A stretch of 64,000 nucleotides of DNA, taken from the NCBI GenBank assembly GCA_014695195.1, contig JACJNW010000021.1, positions 1-64,000 of the forward strand. Direction: 5' to 3'. Below, one piece after another: positions 20,994 to 28,530 of this stretch; positions within the stretch are counted from its first letter, which is position 1; each line of letters opens with the position of its first letter. This DNA is from Cyanobacteria bacterium FACHB-DQ100 (GTDB lineage Bacteria > Cyanobacteriota > Cyanobacteriia > Leptolyngbyales > Leptolyngbyaceae). Below the pieces are notes generated by a model that saw nothing but the letters and a program-made list of their open reading frames with translations, searched no databases and was not told where the DNA came from. Position numbers and translations under genes: made by a program.

Positions 20994-21386
20994 ATGAGCT
21001 TTCAGAAACTCGGTGGCTCCGCGCAAGAGCGCGATCGTCACAGCAGCATTGCCATCTCCGGCTGGGTCTCTCACCCATTCGCCCCTGTCACCTCTGCACC
21101 CCCTGTCTCTCATTCGTCACCTAAGCCTTTTGCTCCCCTCGCTCCACTGCGTCGTAAGCTAGACAGCATTCAGGTTCATAATCCCAAATTTGCTCATTTT
21201 CTAGCAGATCATATTCCCGCTCAGTGCCCATTCGAGCGCGATGTTAAGCTATTCGGCCGCACACTCCTGCACATTCCTCCCATGTGCAAACTCAATCCGC
21301 TTTATGAAGAGGTTATTGCCCTCCGCTTCCGGGCATTGTGCTATTTAGCGGATGAATGCGGCGAAGATATCAGTCAATATTGCTAA
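20994..21386 (+). CDS. Mo-dependent nitrogenase C-terminal-domain protein
   Basis: A 130-residue protein whose C-terminal 80 residues match the Mo-nitro_C family: VHNPKFAHFLADHIPAQCPF ERDVKLFGRTLLHIPPMCKL NPLYEEVIALRFRALCYLAD ECGED. The N-terminal 45 residues are low-complexity, rich in Ser and Pro. Despite the name, the family is found as small stand-alone proteins in many cyanobacteria, including ones without nitrogenase, and its function is unknown. No nif gene is visible in this window. Conserved cysteines (in AQCPF, PMCKL, ALCYL, DECGE) could bind metal, which is inference. A terminator follows. Confidence 0.88.
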   Translation: MSFQKLGGSAQERDRHSSIAISGWVSHPFAPVTSAPPVSHSSPKPFAPLAPLRRKLDSIQVHNPKFAHFLADHIPAQCPFERDVKLFGRTLLHIPPMCKLNPLYEEVIALRFRALCYLADECGEDISQYC

Positions 21387-21897: not shown

Positions 21898-22662
21898 ATG
21901 GCGATCATTGCGCTGAAGGCGTGGTATTTGGAGCAGTATGAACCCATTCGGGAGCTAGAGAAACGTCCCCATGATTTAAGACTAAGCAAAAATAGTCTGC
22001 TGAAATCGGGCTTAAGGGCTGACTTTCTTGAGGATAGCGCTGAGGTGAAGAAATCGACCTGGTTTCAACGGTATCTCCAAGGCGAAACGGTTGAGTTTTA
22101 CATCGAAGGAAGCGGCGGCTACGCAATTTCTAATATTGATCTCTCCAGCCACGAAATCTACTTCTCAAAACAAGAAGTGATGGCAAATCTAGAGCCTGAA
22201 ATCTTCTTTTCCTATCAGACCGAGTTTACGGAATCCGGCGATCTACTCCGGGATGAACTCGAATCCGTCATTGATAGCTTGAATCGTCGATCGCGCCTCC
22301 CCATCACCCTACGAGAATCCCACCGCCTCAGCGAAGGAGCCATTCGATTGAATAGCTCCCTGATGCGATCGATTCGTCAATGTCTTTTATTTATCGGTGA
22401 TGGCACTTCGATCGCTCAAATTTCCGATACGCCTCCGCTCCTGATTCCCAGCCCTAAAGTGTGTGTCGAAACGGGCTACGCGCTGCAAAGTAAGCGATCG
22501 GAGCAAGTTCTACTGGTGCAGATGGAACGCTCCGATATGCCAGGGCAGTTTCCATTTGATCTACCGAGCCAGAATCGATTGGTGTTCAAAGACAAAACAC
22601 AATTGCGGAAGCTATTACCGAAAACGATCGAATCCCAACTCCAGCGCTTCAATCTGCTGTAG
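21898..22662 (+). CDS. Cyanobacterial protein with a C-terminal TIR-like domain (putative)
   Basis: A 254-residue soluble protein. The N-terminal 95 residues (ALKAWYLEQYEPIRELEKRP through YFSKQE) look conserved among cyanobacteria but are unassigned. From about residue 100 the layout resembles TIR-like nucleotide-binding domains: a first strand EIFFSYQTEF, a loop with LPITLRE, a strand QCLLFIGD, then PSPKVCVETGYALQ, which matches the NVxxELGYAL signature with its conserved glutamate, followed by VLLVQMERSDMPGQFPFDL. This assignment rests on motif spacing alone. If right, it may bind or cleave nucleotides such as NAD. It converges with the next gene over a hairpin. Confidence 0.5.
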   Translation: MAIIALKAWYLEQYEPIRELEKRPHDLRLSKNSLLKSGLRADFLEDSAEVKKSTWFQRYLQGETVEFYIEGSGGYAISNIDLSSHEIYFSKQEVMANLEPEIFFSYQTEFTESGDLLRDELESVIDSLNRRSRLPITLRESHRLSEGAIRLNSSLMRSIRQCLLFIGDGTSIAQISDTPPLLIPSPKVCVETGYALQSKRSEQVLLVQMERSDMPGQFPFDLPSQNRLVFKDKTQLRKLLPKTIESQLQRFNLL

Positions 22663-22746: not shown

Positions 22747-23364
22747 TTAATCTTGAGCTTCGTTCAGTGCATACCGAGCGATCGCCAGCGTCAATTTCGC
22801 CTGCTCCGTTTCCGACAGCCTCGCCCAATCGGTCGCCTTTACCGCTTGTTCTTCACCGCGCATCGAGTAAGCCAAGGGACGCGCTAACACTTGTAAGTCT
22901 TCTTCTGCCCACTGCGGCAGCGCTTCTTGTACACACTGAACCAACTGATCTGCCAGAGTTGCGGAGGAATTCGCTAGTTTCTGCGCTTGCTGAGCGATCG
23001 TGTTCAAAATCGATTGTGGCACGGTTGCAAATTTTTGCGCCAGAGAGGTTTCAAGCGTGGGAGCCGCGAACAGCGAATCTAAATGAGAGAAAAAGGCATC
23101 GGCACGATCGGCAACTTCAGCATCAGAGAGCGCATCGAGTGAGAATTTCTGCTCTAAGCTGTTGAAAAACGATTCTGCCTCCGGATCAGCCGGATTCCAA
23201 GGATAAGCGATCGCGCTATCGGGAACTTCCGCGACCTCAACTTCTACAGTGTCAGCATTGTCCGGCTGATTCCACCGCACCGTCACTGCTTCCGAATCAA
23301 GTAAGGCATCGACGAATGCTTGCTGAAGTTCATGAGAGTTAGAAGGACTTGCTTCGTGTGCCAT
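22747..23364 (-). CDS. Acidic soluble protein of unknown function
   Basis: A 205-residue acidic, alanine-rich protein starting MAHEASPSNSHELQQAFVDA. I do not recognise a domain. Residues 60-190 are predicted helical by composition (FFNSLEQKFSLDALSDAEVA, ILNTIAQQAQKLANSSATLA). There is no signal peptide or membrane segment. The frame is open five codons further upstream to 23379; I chose the ATG at 23364. It shares strand with the CHAT-FHA gene, whose stop lies 163 bases upstream, so co-transcription is possible. A link in function is only suggested by position. Confidence 0.6.
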   Translation of the reverse strand: MAHEASPSNSHELQQAFVDALLDSEAVTVRWNQPDNADTVEVEVAEVPDSAIAYPWNPADPEAESFFNSLEQKFSLDALSDAEVADRADAFFSHLDSLFAAPTLETSLAQKFATVPQSILNTIAQQAQKLANSSATLADQLVQCVQEALPQWAEEDLQVLARPLAYSMRGEEQAVKATDWARLSETEQAKLTLAIARYALNEAQD

Positions 23365-23526: not shown

Positions 23527-25155
23527 TTAGTTTCTTCCATCCGCAGGCGAGACCAAGAACTCTAAAACAGAGTTCTGAGAGCCACCAAACTTAATCTGCG
23601 CCCCTGAATATAAGGGCACCTCGTAATTATGGACTTTCTGCCACCCGTTCACCGTCGAAATCCAGGTGCCATAGCGTGAAAAATCCCGCAGAAAATAGGT
23701 CGGCTGCATCGAATCAGCGCTGCGGGAAAAAATTTCCGCGTGTTTGCGCGAAACACCGGGTTCGTTCGCTAAGACCAAATCATTCTCGGTGCTCATGCCC
23801 ACGCGCATCAAGCCACCGCGAATCGTCCAAATCTTGGCGTTTTCCAGCGATCGCAGCGATGCGATCGGATGCTGCCCCCCTAGCTGGCTCGGTGTGTGGG
23901 GAATTTGCGTTAATCCTTCTTCGATCGGTTTAATCAATTCCCCGTTGAATTCCGGGTGCATATACAACACAGGCAATGTCCAGGCCTGGTGATTGAATCG
24001 AAACAAAGTCAGCAAATGTTGACGCGCAACGGCAACGGATTGATCGATCGGCATTCGATCGCTCAACGCTTGAGCAAAGGCTGCGATAAAACTCAGCGCT
24101 TCTTGATCGGTAATCGAATCTCGCATCGCTAACACTGCGGGCACTCCGTGATGCAGCAACACCTCCGCTAAGCTACTTCTCGGAATCGTCTGGTGATGTT
24201 GTTCCTCTGGTTGCGCTCCCCAACACGCATTAAACACGGCTAGTTTGACCTGACAGCGAGTGAGCACCTGTGCTAGTTCTGTCCCATTCATCGGCTGATT
24301 GGGGCGCAGAAATAGCAAGCCACCATCGGGCGCAGGAACGCCGTGACCCGCATAAAACAGGACATTATAATGACCGTTCTCCAGCCGATCGATCAGGTCT
24401 GCTGAAGTCGGTTGCAGCAGCGTATCGACGAAACAAGGAGCCGCAAGCCGACCCATTCCCGGTCGCTCTCGTAGAATTCTCGAGAGCGCGGTTGCTTCTT
24501 GCTCTAACTTCAGTCGCTTCAACTCGTCGCGCTGTCTGCCTTCAAATCCAACGTTAGGCAAGTCGGGCGCGGCATTTTGTCCTAGAACCAAGAGTACATT
24601 CAGGCTGGTTTCCGATCGCAGTTCCGGGAGTGCATCGACATCGGTGGTGGTGCGACTAAATAAAAGCTGCTGACTGAGCGAGATTGCCTGCTTTCCCGCA
24701 TCGCTTTGCATGATCTCCCAAGGCAGCGAGATCAGATCGGGATCGCGTACATCTAATCGTACCCGGAGCGCTTTTCCTTTGCCCTGAGCGATTCCCTGGC
24801 TGCGATTTAGACTGCTCTGAATCACGCCATCAAACAGCCATTGCCACAGATTAATTCCCAGATCTTGCATTAAGCGGGCGCTGCGCGGAACCGGTTGACC
24901 GATCGGCAGCTCTGCGGCTCGGATTGGCGGTGTGCTGACCTGCGAGACGTGCGGCACGTCCGGAACTCCACGCGAGGAAAACATTTCCTGCCACGATCGC
25001 CAGTGGTGCATCAACTCGTCTGTCCATAGACAATCTCGCAGCAAATATCCTCCCCGATAAGGAGCTTCAATCACATGGATTGCGAAGTGCTGGGCTTGGG
25101 AAGCGCGTAATCGCTCGATCGCAAGACTTAAACAGGGAAGTTCAGACGGTGACAT
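23527..25155 (-). CDS. CHAT-domain (caspase-like) protein with C-terminal FHA domain
   Basis: A 542-residue protein in two parts. Residues 90-415 form a CHAT domain, the clan CD caspase/separase-like peptidase fold, with the catalytic pair visible: His271 in FYAGHG and Cys311 in FNACWG. Residues 442-535 form an FHA domain (RVGMSTENDLVL 451-462, SRKH 469-472, RDFSRYGTW), which binds phosphothreonine peptides. Thus a putative protease is tied to a phosphorylation reader. The start lies 189 bases beyond the stop-proximal PP2C start, 45 bases after the PP2C stop, on the same strand: almost certainly one operon. Function inferred: phospho-regulated proteolysis or cell-death signalling. Confidence 0.88.
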   Translation of the reverse strand: MSPSELPCLSLAIERLRASQAQHFAIHVIEAPYRGGYLLRDCLWTDELMHHWRSWQEMFSSRGVPDVPHVSQVSTPPIRAAELPIGQPVPRSARLMQDLGINLWQWLFDGVIQSSLNRSQGIAQGKGKALRVRLDVRDPDLISLPWEIMQSDAGKQAISLSQQLLFSRTTTDVDALPELRSETSLNVLLVLGQNAAPDLPNVGFEGRQRDELKRLKLEQEATALSRILRERPGMGRLAAPCFVDTLLQPTSADLIDRLENGHYNVLFYAGHGVPAPDGGLLFLRPNQPMNGTELAQVLTRCQVKLAVFNACWGAQPEEQHHQTIPRSSLAEVLLHHGVPAVLAMRDSITDQEALSFIAAFAQALSDRMPIDQSVAVARQHLLTLFRFNHQAWTLPVLYMHPEFNGELIKPIEEGLTQIPHTPSQLGGQHPIASLRSLENAKIWTIRGGLMRVGMSTENDLVLANEPGVSRKHAEIFSRSADSMQPTYFLRDFSRYGTWISTVNGWQKVHNYEVPLYSGAQIKFGGSQNSVLEFLVSPADGRN

Positions 25156-25200
25156 GAATTGGCAAAAGCTGGTTAACTCCAGAACTTCAATATTAATATT

Positions 25201-27345
25201 CTATGGGGTGGAAGGAACGTTCGGTTTTGGCAGTTCTGTTGAAGCAGTACAGACTCCGAGTTGGTTGGAATCAGCGATGGAGAAGGGCGCGATCGCGCTT
25301 TCTTTCTGCAAACCGATGTCTCCGGCTTTAACGGCATTTGGCAGTTTAGCATCTGGATTTGGGGTGCAAACTTTTAGGCGTATCCAAGTCGATCGATCTG
25401 TCGTGTTCTGCTGTCGTCCCAGGACTTGTAAAACGGTTCCCGGTGGGATTTGTCCGACGAGTTCGCGAGCAGGATCAACCGGCGACCCAGATGTTCTCAA
25501 GAGTGGAAGTCCTGCGTCGCTTGCAGGGCGATCGAGACGAATGAGTGCGCCTGTGTCCAGAGCGAGGGGAGGATCGGGTACAGGCGGAACGAGCGGCGAT
25601 TCTACAACGGTGGGACGACGATTGCTCAGGGTGGGAATGAGTTCTGGGACAAATAGTGCCGCGATCGCGCCTGCTACGCTGAATAATCCCAGAAGCATCA
25701 GCAACGTTTTGAGCCAGGACGATCGGCGCGGTTGCAGTTCGGTTCGCAGTCCGGGCGGCGAGGTGGAAGGCGCAAACATTTGAGTTGGTTTTGTCCGTTC
25801 TGGTAGCTCACTGAGTTGCACGGTGGAGGATTGCCCCGTTTCACGGATTTGACAATGAATTAAACCGACGGTGACGTTATCGTGACCGTTCTGCGTGTTG
25901 GCGATTTCCACTAATCTGCGGGCAACGGTAGCAAGATCGGTTTTACCGTCAAGCATTGGAACAATTTCGCTTTGCCAGTATTCTTCGACGAGATCGTTAT
26001 CGCTCAAGCCATCCGAACACAATAGGAAAACGCAGTCTTCATCGAGAATAAATCGTTGAGTAGAGGGATGCAAAGTGTTTGAACTTCCCATGCCCAGAGC
26101 TTGTACGAGTGAGCCCGCCGAGGAGCGTTGTACCGCTTCCCGGTATAAGGTGTAGCCCGATCGAGCTTGGCGGGAGGCAACATCATCATCAAGCGTGACC
26201 TGATAACAGCCGCGTCGAGTAATACGATAAGCGCGGCTATCGCCAACGTGCGTCAGATACAGTTCGTGCGATCGTACCAGTCCCATAACGACTGTAGTTC
26301 CCATACGTTGACGCTCTTGTCGCCGTTCTGCATCGTTCTTTGCGGCGATCGCGTCATTGGCTCTCAGCACTGCTTCTTCGAGTCCCCACTCCAGATTCTG
26401 GGTTAGCGTTTGCGTGTGCTGCACGATCGTTTGAATTGCCAGGTTTGAGGCAACTTCTCCCCCTTCATGCCCACCCACGCCATCGCAGACAATCAGGAGG
26501 GAATGATTCGCACCGCTAGTTCCGCTCACTGGATAACAGGCATCTTCGTTACTTGAACGACTTGGGCCCTGATCGCTGAGCGTGGCGAGTTGAATCTGTC
26601 GAGTTTGTTGGGTACTTTGAGACGCGATCGCAGCATCTAGCACCTCGATCAAGCCTTCTGCGTTGGTAATCTGTCCTTGAATTAAATTCTGACAGACTTG
26701 ATTCAAGAATTCTGCGATCGCAGGCTGGACTTGCCAACTTGACCAAAATTTTCCCAGTTCTGCAAGTGGGACCGTGCCTCGATCTAGCTCTAGCTCTAAG
26801 ACTCTAACGGTATCCCCATCTGCAAAGATAAGATCAGAATTCAGCAGCGTAGAGGCAGCTTTTTCTACACTCAAACTGCGCCAAAGTTGTGCCAGTTGCC
26901 GCAAAAAGTGAAGCTGACGAAATCCGCGACTTGCATTCCACACTTGCTCTAATCGCGGCATCAATTGCCCGGATAAATCTTCTCCCTGTTCAGAACGCGC
27001 CCCACTGGGATAGAGCGGCGCCAATTCTAGAAAGACGATCTCGCCAACCACGGCATAGGGCTGTGGAATTGCAGGGCGTTCGGTCATCAGATGCAAATAA
27101 GGTTCGAGCGGTGGGGGGACTTCGATCGCGCTCGTCGGCAGCCCTGGTTTTGTGTCTAATGCGATTTGACCGGACTTAATCAAAAAGCGATCGTCGATCA
27201 ATTCCCCAGGTGAAGCAGTTGATCCGAGTGCCCACAGGTAACGCTTTGGAATTCGGGTGTGACAGTTGTGGCAAAACGGCTGGCTTTCAGAATTGAGCGC
27301 CTGACAAAAACAGTTGGGGCATTGCACGATCGAATCAGTTTGCAT
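25201..27345 (-). CDS. Zinc-ribbon PP2C-type Ser/Thr phosphatase with membrane anchor
   Basis: A 714-residue protein. An N-terminal zinc ribbon has CPNC at 9-12 and CHNC at 25-28. Residues 252-500 are a PP2C (PPM) phosphatase: LSDQGPSRSSNED, VCDGVGGHEGGE at 287-297, DGLSD at 445-449 and GHDNVT at 487-492 supply the metal-binding aspartates. A membrane segment lies at about 545-566, and a C-terminal SH3-like region follows (TVLQVLGRQQ...WIRLKVC). It removes phosphate from Ser/Thr residues, opposing Hanks-type kinases; none is in the window. I chose the ATG at 27345; an 18-codon upstream extension is not conserved. It precedes the CHAT-FHA gene in the operon. Confidence 0.9.
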   Translation of the reverse strand: MQTDSIVQCPNCFCQALNSESQPFCHNCHTRIPKRYLWALGSTASPGELIDDRFLIKSGQIALDTKPGLPTSAIEVPPPLEPYLHLMTERPAIPQPYAVVGEIVFLELAPLYPSGARSEQGEDLSGQLMPRLEQVWNASRGFRQLHFLRQLAQLWRSLSVEKAASTLLNSDLIFADGDTVRVLELELDRGTVPLAELGKFWSSWQVQPAIAEFLNQVCQNLIQGQITNAEGLIEVLDAAIASQSTQQTRQIQLATLSDQGPSRSSNEDACYPVSGTSGANHSLLIVCDGVGGHEGGEVASNLAIQTIVQHTQTLTQNLEWGLEEAVLRANDAIAAKNDAERRQERQRMGTTVVMGLVRSHELYLTHVGDSRAYRITRRGCYQVTLDDDVASRQARSGYTLYREAVQRSSAGSLVQALGMGSSNTLHPSTQRFILDEDCVFLLCSDGLSDNDLVEEYWQSEIVPMLDGKTDLATVARRLVEIANTQNGHDNVTVGLIHCQIRETGQSSTVQLSELPERTKPTQMFAPSTSPPGLRTELQPRRSSWLKTLLMLLGLFSVAGAIAALFVPELIPTLSNRRPTVVESPLVPPVPDPPLALDTGALIRLDRPASDAGLPLLRTSGSPVDPARELVGQIPPGTVLQVLGRQQNTTDRSTWIRLKVCTPNPDAKLPNAVKAGDIGLQKESAIAPFSIADSNQLGVCTASTELPKPNVPSTP

Positions 27346-27522
27346 TGAAAGAATGTCTCTACGAGTTGCCCGGTTCTGATGGCGTGAAGTATTTCTCACT
27401 CTAACAATTTTTGTCGATCGTAGCGGATAAGACGACGGTGATTCGAGTGGAATTCCGGGTTTCCTCGCGTTGCGATCGTCCGATTTGGAGGCACAATAAA
27501 CCAGATTTTACTGAGATGGGCT

Positions 27523-28530
27523 ATGTCTTTCGTGCACCGCCGATTCGGATTTGCTTCGCTGTTGCTGGGTTTGACCATTGCCGCACCAAGTGCGACCGCT
27601 GTACCCCCATTTGCGCCGATCGCGCCGCCTCCGGTTGCGCCATCTTTACCGCAGGAGAATCAGCCCGATTTTCGAGTGGCAGGACTTCAGCGCGATTTTC
27701 AAGGCAATCTCTGGGTGGCAACTTCACGCAGCGTTGCAAAAATTGATCCTAATACCGGAAGAGTGCTTGCACGAGTGCCATTGCCGAATCTGACGATCGG
27801 GGCGCTGGCTCAAGATCGGGTGGGTCGAATTTGGGTCGGCACCAGTGAGGGACTTTGGCGCATCGATCCAAAAACGAATCAAGTGACTGCGCTCAATCTC
27901 TTTTTGCCATCGAATCGGGTGTTAGCTTTGCTTGTCGATCAGCGAGGCTTTCTTTGGGTCGGGACTGATTCGGGATTGGCGCTGGTCAGCCCGCATGAAG
28001 GGCTGCTGATGACGACGCTGAAGAACTTACCAGGTGTGAGTGCCAACGCGCTCAGCCTCGATCCGCAGGGGCAGCTTTGGGTGGGAACGCTCGATAGCTT
28101 GGTGCAGGTCGATACAGCAACCGCCAAGATTCTTCATACGACCAACTTGGAGGAAGGAGCGGTTCAGGCTTTAGCACTCGATCGACATGGCTCCCTCTGG
28201 GCGGGCACAACGAGCGGTTTGGTGAAAATTGATCCGGCAAATCGGCGACGGGAGCGATCAATCACATCGCTGCGGGGGCGTGAGATTCTGTCTGCGGGAT
28301 TCGATGCCGTGGGCAGCATTTGGGTGGGAACCAATCGCGGATTGCTGCGCGTGAATCCCTACAATGGCGCGATCGTCGGTGAAGTACCGAATTTGCCTTC
28401 AAATCGTGTGTTGTCGCTTGCGCCTGATACTGGGAATAAGTTGTGGGTGGGAACCAGTGAGGGATTAGCCTGGGTGAGTATGACTAATTTTCAGACGAGA
28501 CCGCATTTGCTATTTTCTAGAACGTATTAA
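27523..28530 (+). CDS. Secreted seven-bladed beta-propeller (two-component-regulator-propeller type)
   Basis: A 335-residue protein with an N-terminal signal peptide (RRFGFASLLLGLTIAAPSATA, cleavage about residue 26) and a proline-rich linker. The rest is seven repeats of about 40 residues with the core LWVGTxxGLxxIDPxT, as in the sensor propellers of hybrid two-component regulators. Here no membrane segment, kinase or response domain follows, so it is a stand-alone exported propeller. It is divergent from the PP2C gene, with about 180 bases between start codons, and converges with the Mqo-like gene over a hairpin. Ligand unknown. Confidence 0.85.
   Translation: MSFVHRRFGFASLLLGLTIAAPSATAVPPFAPIAPPPVAPSLPQENQPDFRVAGLQRDFQGNLWVATSRSVAKIDPNTGRVLARVPLPNLTIGALAQDRVGRIWVGTSEGLWRIDPKTNQVTALNLFLPSNRVLALLVDQRGFLWVGTDSGLALVSPHEGLLMTTLKNLPGVSANALSLDPQGQLWVGTLDSLVQVDTATAKILHTTNLEEGAVQALALDRHGSLWAGTTSGLVKIDPANRRRERSITSLRGREILSAGFDAVGSIWVGTNRGLLRVNPYNGAIVGEVPNLPSNRVLSLAPDTGNKLWVGTSEGLAWVSMTNFQTRPHLLFSRTY

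Follow-up and report, generated by a model that had tools for sequence, protein, structure and literature searches.

We analyzed a 64,000-nucleotide stretch of DNA from Cyanobacteria bacterium FACHB-DQ100 (contig JACJNW010000021.1; the window hereafter). In this window, the genes for a PP2C phosphatase, for a caspase-like CHAT protease with an FHA domain (CHAT-FHA) and for a 205-residue protein (P205) follow each other in this order of transcription on the minus strand, with a propeller gene diverging from them (Table 1). Our main subject is the pairing of CHAT-FHA with P205 across genomes, which is near-obligate and represents the strongest result of the study. The open reading frame (ORF) of the phosphatase covers positions 25201-27399 (-), 45 bases from CHAT-FHA. 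Because most orthologues align from residue 19, an inner ATG, the gene likely starts there. P205 starts at Met6 of a 210-residue ORF, a methionine present in 118/123 aligned sequences. Scans for promoters and terminators returned sites no more numerous than in shuffled sequences.

Table 1. Genes and features of the CHAT-FHA locus, in window positions.
Feature	Position	Strand	Basis
CHAT-FHA protease gene, 542 residues	23527..25155	-	HetF-related CHAT plus C-terminal FHA
CHAT (caspase-like) domain, residues 99-393	23977..24861	-	Pfam PF12770, 73.5 bits, cut-off 24
Catalytic His271 codon (AGHG motif)	24343..24345	-	invariant, 129/129 distinct sequences
Catalytic Cys311 codon (NACWG motif)	24223..24225	-	invariant, 129/129 distinct sequences
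FHA domain, residues 451-524; Met454 at phosphothreonine-binding Arg position	23584..23805	-	Pfam PF00498, 41.9 bits, cut-off 20.7
P205, predicted helical partner, putative remote PatU homologue and candidate CHAT-FHA target	22747..23364	-	co-occurrence plus PatU profile match
P205 Arg174 codon, start of variable-length loop; predicted P1 residue	22858..22860	-	120/123 sequences
PP2C phosphatase, membrane-anchored, zinc ribbon, frequent upstream neighbour	25201..27345	-	Pfam; 77 orthologues
Propeller gene	27523..28530	+	Reg_prop over Pfam cut-off; divergent from operon

We analyzed the conservation and kinship of CHAT-FHA. Identical proteins were counted once, and ORFs shorter than 480 residues were excluded from the residue counts, leaving 136 sequences, 129 of them distinct, including the window's own. 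An original prediction made from the window had placed a His271/Cys311 dyad and an FHA domain in this one protein. Both domains are indeed found over their Pfam cut-offs, and the dyad is conserved throughout the family. Within the window's family, 41 of 42 genomes carry an orthologue, with internal stops in two of the 41 loci (G009 and G010), and among genomes drawn from the class, 145 of 291 do (E ≤ 1e-60). This conservation is far above chance. Leptolyngbya, Planktothrix, Trichodesmium, Okeania, Arthrospira, Microcoleus, Spirulina and Chamaesiphon are among the bearers; Chamaesiphon is unicellular, and the other genera are filamentous. Eleven HetF-type proteins, among them that of the window's own genome (L213, 206.6 bits), score 173-212 bits with a profile built from the CHAT domain of CHAT-FHA, and the matches span almost the whole profile. 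Nine other CHAT loci fetched from that genome give partial matches of 12-65 bits (four loci) or nothing at E ≤ 1e-3 (five loci). CHAT-FHA itself matches the HetF model NF045509 with 155 bits, over its CHAT part only, and because the curated equivalog cut-off is 1200 bits, its sequence marks it as a relative of HetF rather than as HetF. The transmembrane part of the HetF domain layout, as given in PMC8406250, was not found in CHAT-FHA, whose most hydrophobic 19-residue stretch reaches 1.05 on the Kyte-Doolittle scale. The kinship is taken from the CHAT-domain profile scores. A CHAT tree was not used, as it had long branches, 4/23 well supported inner branches, and CHAT proteins of the window's genome on branches of 8 in both groups.

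P205 was detected in 144 of the 291 class genomes by protein search and in 146 by profile search. In raw genome counts, which ignore kinship in the species tree, CHAT-FHA and P205 occur together in 144 genomes and are both absent from 144; CHAT-FHA alone is found in one genome (G206) and P205 alone in two (G076 and G294). A role of the 205-residue protein as a further member or substrate had been raised in passing, and it has become our main point. The three exceptions likely have explicable causes. In G206, the contig stops 135 bases beyond CHAT-FHA, and the G294 assembly is 72% complete. G076, rated 100% complete, carries in order PP2C, a CHAT-FHA remnant eroded down to its FHA end (E 7.5e-13), and P205, which is intact (L125, G076:C16:51552-62064). 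P205 of G117 is clipped at a contig end, yet was recovered by the profile. By coordinates, P205 lies directly downstream of CHAT-FHA in 118 of the 143 genomes with both genes in protein searches, and in G044 a contig break separates P205 from the end of CHAT-FHA immediately before it, giving 119/143 linked genomes. The two genes lie apart in the remaining 24, where the P205 loci fetched, with at least 1.4 kb upstream, are without CHAT-FHA. No constant partner of P205 emerged from its flanking genes in the 25 loci that an initial count, with G044 still included, gave as unlinked (largest group 6/25). Among loci with enough flank, P205 is directly downstream in 89/122. The genes are also missing together: G025 of family f1, rated 100% complete, has neither, and its congener G024 has both, 0.55 Mb apart. 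In family f31, both g130 genomes carry the two genes at non-adjacent positions, and the four g60 genomes carry neither. With family f11 (G051, and G128 at 62% completeness), these within-family absences make at least three separate cases. Distance-matrix correlations over 58 loci are not discriminating (CHAT-P205 0.62, CHAT-PP2C 0.55, P205-PP2C 0.57). We found no description of the CHAT-FHA/P205 pair in the open-access literature searched; a gene list for filamentous species only, as published in PMC2821919, includes hetZ, patU3 and several unnamed genes.

What P205 may be is suggested by profile comparison. No Pfam or NCBIfam family is found over its cut-off in P205, for which we kept 123 distinct sequences after excluding those shorter than 120 residues. 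A profile search returned a second, weak match (E 2.8e-4) in a genome of family f32 (G243), a family whose HetF proteins exceed the curated HetF cut-off. The matching 332-residue protein is encoded directly downstream of HetZ (NF037963, 656 bits, cut-off 550). By its position, this protein is PatU: PMC7377430 describes patU as following hetZ immediately and as being divided into patU5 and patU3 in Anabaena 7120. Several f32 genomes show stops within the PatU region that matches P205. For PatU itself, the NCBIfam models gave nothing at E ≤ 1, and none of the Pfam models passed its cut-off. The P205 profile matched a PatU profile built from 21 sequences with E 2.2e-5 and a PatU profile built from 66 sequences (66 of 70 loci, ORFs shorter than 260 residues excluded) with E 2.7e-6 and a probability of 88.6% over 100 columns, a match of medium strength that is confident only in the last ~100 C-terminal columns. 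Among 37 control alignments, which were the other neighbour ORF clusters without that of P205 and included some antisense ORFs and one CHAT-FHA, the best reached 1.4e-3 and the next 0.034. The best of 100 column shuffles gave 0.051, and reversed PatU 0.42. In a permissive alignment read by eye, the two families share the following series: a (Y/F)PW motif, then a P...L segment, LV..V...P, a conserved arginine with Gly/Ser behind it, and lastly a Q...LSL.A helix. P205 Arg-174 (120/123) aligns with PatU Arg-189 (63/66). It is followed by glycine in 64/120 and by serine in 26/120 sequences, and lies at the start of a loop that varies in length. The conserved part of P205 is its C-terminal half. 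Together, the alignments identify P205 as a probable remote homologue of PatU that ends before the PatU C-terminal domain and, in place of hetZ, adjoins CHAT-FHA in most genomes. A structure model of P205 (mean predicted local distance difference test score, pLDDT, 69.9) is mostly helical. It gave no clear match in the PDB (best Z 4.4, a Cmr5 protein), and we do not take it as a new fold. We also considered CyDiv (All2320), which is described as a 197-residue protein with a C-terminal transmembrane segment (PMC4748335). By that description it is unlikely to be P205, as the window's P205 is without a C-terminal hydrophobic segment.

We compared the distribution of both pairs. HetF reportedly cleaves PatU3, which in turn is reported to bind HetZ and hold it in check (PMC12288457, PMC7377430). 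Among the 291 genomes, HetF is found in 147 (E ≤ 1e-100), PatU in 150, and both in 145. It is conceivable, if improbable, that all six genes are merely core genes of filamentous cyanobacteria with equal range, so that their linkage is only apparent. All gene pairs correlate strongly, as such an explanation would predict: CHAT-FHA and HetF are found together in 137 genomes, CHAT-FHA alone in 8 and HetF alone in 10. The discordant genomes, however, sort by pair. PatU is present, and P205 absent, in all 10 genomes that have HetF but lack CHAT-FHA, whereas all 8 genomes with CHAT-FHA and no HetF match have P205, four of them without PatU. Discordance within pairs (CHAT-FHA/P205, 3 of 291 genomes; HetF/PatU, 7) is lower than across pairs (CHAT-FHA/PatU, 17; HetF/P205, 21), and the joint disappearance of the non-adjacent CHAT-FHA and P205 genes from G025 again argues against mere equality of range. 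HetZ_rel_2 (NF037965), a relative of the PatU partner HetZ, follows CHAT-FHA: it is present in 51/52 genomes with CHAT-FHA and in 4/55 without it. This sample of 107/291 genomes comprised 27 picked as informative and 80 split evenly between bearers and non-bearers of CHAT-FHA, and HetZ_rel_2 was counted although below the curated cut-off in G048 (two pieces) and G098 (partial). HetZ gave no match or only weak cross-matches in four genomes with CHAT-FHA and without HetF or PatU (G048, G055, G278 and G282) and in G076, which has kept HetZ_rel_2 and shows no HetF or PatU match and no full HetZ match. Protease, PatU-like protein and HetZ-like protein exist as two sets, each with its own distribution.

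Three further observations concern HetZ_rel_2. It is located beside patU in two f11 genomes (G051:C15:6586-10886, which also contains hetZ, and G107:C234:3168-7724), an adjacency that physically links the two sets. In G000 (G000:C28:1049400-1050290) and five other tested f1 genomes, the match breaks off around position 300-319 of the 367-position model, which would fit a loss of the C-terminal part in the window's family. G266 contains a second copy within an 809-residue open frame (G266:C3:3790026-3791123), possibly a fusion.

We lean slightly toward reading CHAT-FHA and P205 as a protease and its target, a sister copy of HetF/PatU that would form part of a second HetF-PatU-HetZ-like switch. 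CHAT-FHA would cleave P205, probably after Arg-174 at the start of the loop, and thereby remove the last P205 helix. P205 would bind and brake HetZ_rel_2, which cleavage would release. The main rival is that P205 is a dedicated partner, be it an activator, an inhibitor or a substrate adaptor, which binds CHAT-FHA and is needed by the protease. This is possible, though we regard it as unlikely. The near-perfect pairing suits any obligate complex, P205 could make contacts through its conserved C-terminal half, and the persistence of P205 next to an eroded CHAT-FHA in G076 suggests that the protein may function by itself for some while. On the other hand, the homology of P205 to PatU, the protein cut in the sister system, favours a target role, and a conserved arginine followed by Gly/Ser at a loop start would suit a caspase-like protease with specificity for basic residues. 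Such specificity is described for orthocaspases (PMC6426788), and we assume it for CHAT proteases.

In the protease-target reading, the FHA domain and the adjoining membrane PP2C may tie the protease to Ser/Thr phosphorylation. The FHA domain had been predicted to read phosphothreonine. Ser-469 is present in 129/129 and His-472 in 127/129 sequences, and position 454, which by comparison with Rad53-type FHA domains we take to be the phosphothreonine-binding arginine, is Arg in 105/129. The column that we take to be the usual FHA asparagine position is Tyr or Phe in 119/129. Phosphothreonine reading thus appears plausible for most of the family and is doubtful for the window's own protein, because the latter has Met in place of Arg at 454. 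PP2C is found directly upstream of CHAT-FHA in 76/119 non-redundant loci with enough flank, in line with the predicted neighbourhood. Its predicted zinc ribbon (four cysteines kept in 73-74 of 77 sequences), its anchor (a hydrophobic segment behind the PP2C domain in 74/77 orthologues) and the 45-base gap were all confirmed. The PP2C domain lies over its Pfam cut-off, while the proposed SH3-like tail is seen only below threshold (14.5 bits, cut-off 27). Asp-286, Asp-306, Asp-387, Asp-463 and Asp-507, presumably the metal-binding residues, are present in 77/77 sequences. It is likely that this phosphatase is the phosphorylation link of CHAT-FHA. As in known circuits of FHA proteins, PP2C phosphatases and Hanks kinases, an FHA domain and, by its residues, an active-looking PP2C stand side by side. 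Unlike in these circuits, the phosphothreonine-binding arginine is lost in the window's FHA domain, and we identified no kinase among the recurrent neighbours of CHAT-FHA loci; the window's genome has 22 Hanks kinase matches. The phosphatase also resembles PrpJ (All1731) in being a membrane PP2C; PrpJ is described as an Anabaena protein needed for heterocyst glycolipids (PMC6161253). We rejected an identification with HltA, a different PP2C with a GAF domain according to PMC9430166. PP2C residues 50-260, between the zinc ribbon and the PP2C domain, gave a colinear but weak hhalign match to Hanks kinases (E 0.027, probability 1.8%). The four-cysteine pattern resembles that of a kinase in the same genome (L232). 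The protein may combine an inactive kinase with a phosphatase, which we note as a lead only.

We next describe the other neighbours. Our neighbourhood sample consisted of the CHAT-FHA loci of 74/145 genomes and 71 named loci. Recurrent neighbours in 135 non-redundant loci are P205 (98 loci), PP2C (82), NdhM (50), an FHA-PrsW protein on the opposite strand (38) and peptide deformylase (23), with the NdhM, FHA-PrsW and peptide deformylase clusters named from one member each. The FHA-PrsW cluster represents a second FHA-bearing protease beside CHAT-FHA; in the member at L040:5614-7005 (-), from which the domains were read, FHA is fused to a PrsW intramembrane metalloprotease, and the gene is convergent to P205. 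Within the window, a 254-residue ORF at 21898-22662 (+) has no convincing family match, and its C-terminal part resembles, in our judgement, TIR-like nucleotide-binding effector domains. Positions 20994-21386 (+) encode a Mo-dependent nitrogenase C-terminus family protein (Pfam, 143.8 bits). The propeller is divergent, as described. Its translation shows seven W-[VA]-[GA]-T repeats, in line with the seven blades proposed, and Pfam counts six Reg_prop stretches. Its proposed membership in the module is rejected, as it adjoins the operon in 4/71 named loci, all from the window's own genus, and is a genus-level bystander.

This bears on the cell-death or conflict role of the original prediction, in which CHAT-FHA, PP2C and the propeller form a membrane-tethered module. 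In a structure model of CHAT-FHA (mean pLDDT 68.7), residues 180-411 match activated SAVED-CHAT (8tl0, Z 19.2), with FHA-domain structures matched at Z about 15. CHAT conflict proteases (SAVED-CHAT; Craspase TPR-CHAT) have a dedicated partner protein, as CHAT-FHA does. The caspase-like fold, the adjacency of PP2C and a weak PADLOC match of the latter (PDC-M21C, E 1.6e-5) would all suit such a module. However, the matches of CHAT-FHA (SAVED_CHAT, E 0.016) and of the propeller (HEAT-ARM_XIII, E 0.0016) are weak as well, and we found no strong defence match among the seven window proteins scanned and nothing in the analysis that favours the role itself. Unlike a conflict system, CHAT-FHA belongs to the core genes and occurs once per genome, it carries an FHA domain, its closest relative is the developmental protease HetF, and the propeller is rarely nearby. 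We thus consider a conflict module very improbable.

Several observations weigh against a second switch of the HetF-PatU-HetZ kind. Besides the disregard of kinship in the co-occurrence counts and the medium strength of the P205-PatU match, CHAT-FHA correlates with HetF and PatU also. PatU is still present in 4/8 CHAT-FHA genomes without a HetF match (G172, G245, G268 and G289; completeness of the last three 91, 83 and 69%). HetZ_rel_2 occurs without intact CHAT-FHA in G025, G051, G128 and G076, where CHAT-FHA looks recently lost or eroded, and can thus persist alone; in G245, CHAT-FHA is present and HetZ_rel_2 is missing. P205 is not directly downstream of CHAT-FHA in 33/122 loci (just upstream in 3 of these), and PP2C is not directly upstream in 43/119. 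PP2C homologues are found in 240/291 genomes at E ≤ 1e-50, paralogues included. Because many of these genomes lack CHAT-FHA, the role of PP2C is wider than the CHAT-FHA pathway. The FHA arginine at position 454 is replaced in 24/129 sequences, with Met in the window's protein and its closest relatives. We also do not favor P205 as the phosphothreonine ligand of the FHA domain, as it has no conserved threonine column (best 28%).

The protease-target reading can be compared to the HetF/PatU3/HetZ system in its parts. Both comprise a CHAT protease of the same subclade with a His/Cys dyad, a PatU-like helical partner and a co-distributed regulator of the HetZ family. CHAT-FHA differs from HetF in having a C-terminal FHA domain where HetF has transmembrane and TPR parts, and P205 is without the C-terminal ~100 residues of PatU. 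In contrast to the HetF system, CHAT-FHA is often found beside a PP2C, and protease and partner usually adjoin on one strand. Many of the named CHAT-FHA genera do not form heterocysts, unlike the heterocyst formers of the HetF/PatU3/HetZ system. We tentatively extend the reading to two paralogous switches in filamentous cyanobacteria, HetF-PatU-HetZ and CHAT-FHA-P205-HetZ_rel_2, in which all three parts would have been duplicated and kept apart. The two targets might be cut behind one and the same conserved arginine, and the second switch might act under Ser/Thr control by the membrane PP2C, serving filament life generally rather than heterocysts; taken as a whole, we hold this picture to be possible but not probable.

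In HetF and PatU3, bacteria have a caspase-like protease and its target that serve development. Our reading gives the unannotated P205 a partner and a testable function, and it places a predicted cleavage site in PatU as well as in P205. If it is true, a second set that extends to filamentous species lacking heterocysts would allow one to ask what such a switch did before heterocysts evolved, and through it Hanks-type phosphorylation could be connected to proteolysis in multicellular bacteria.

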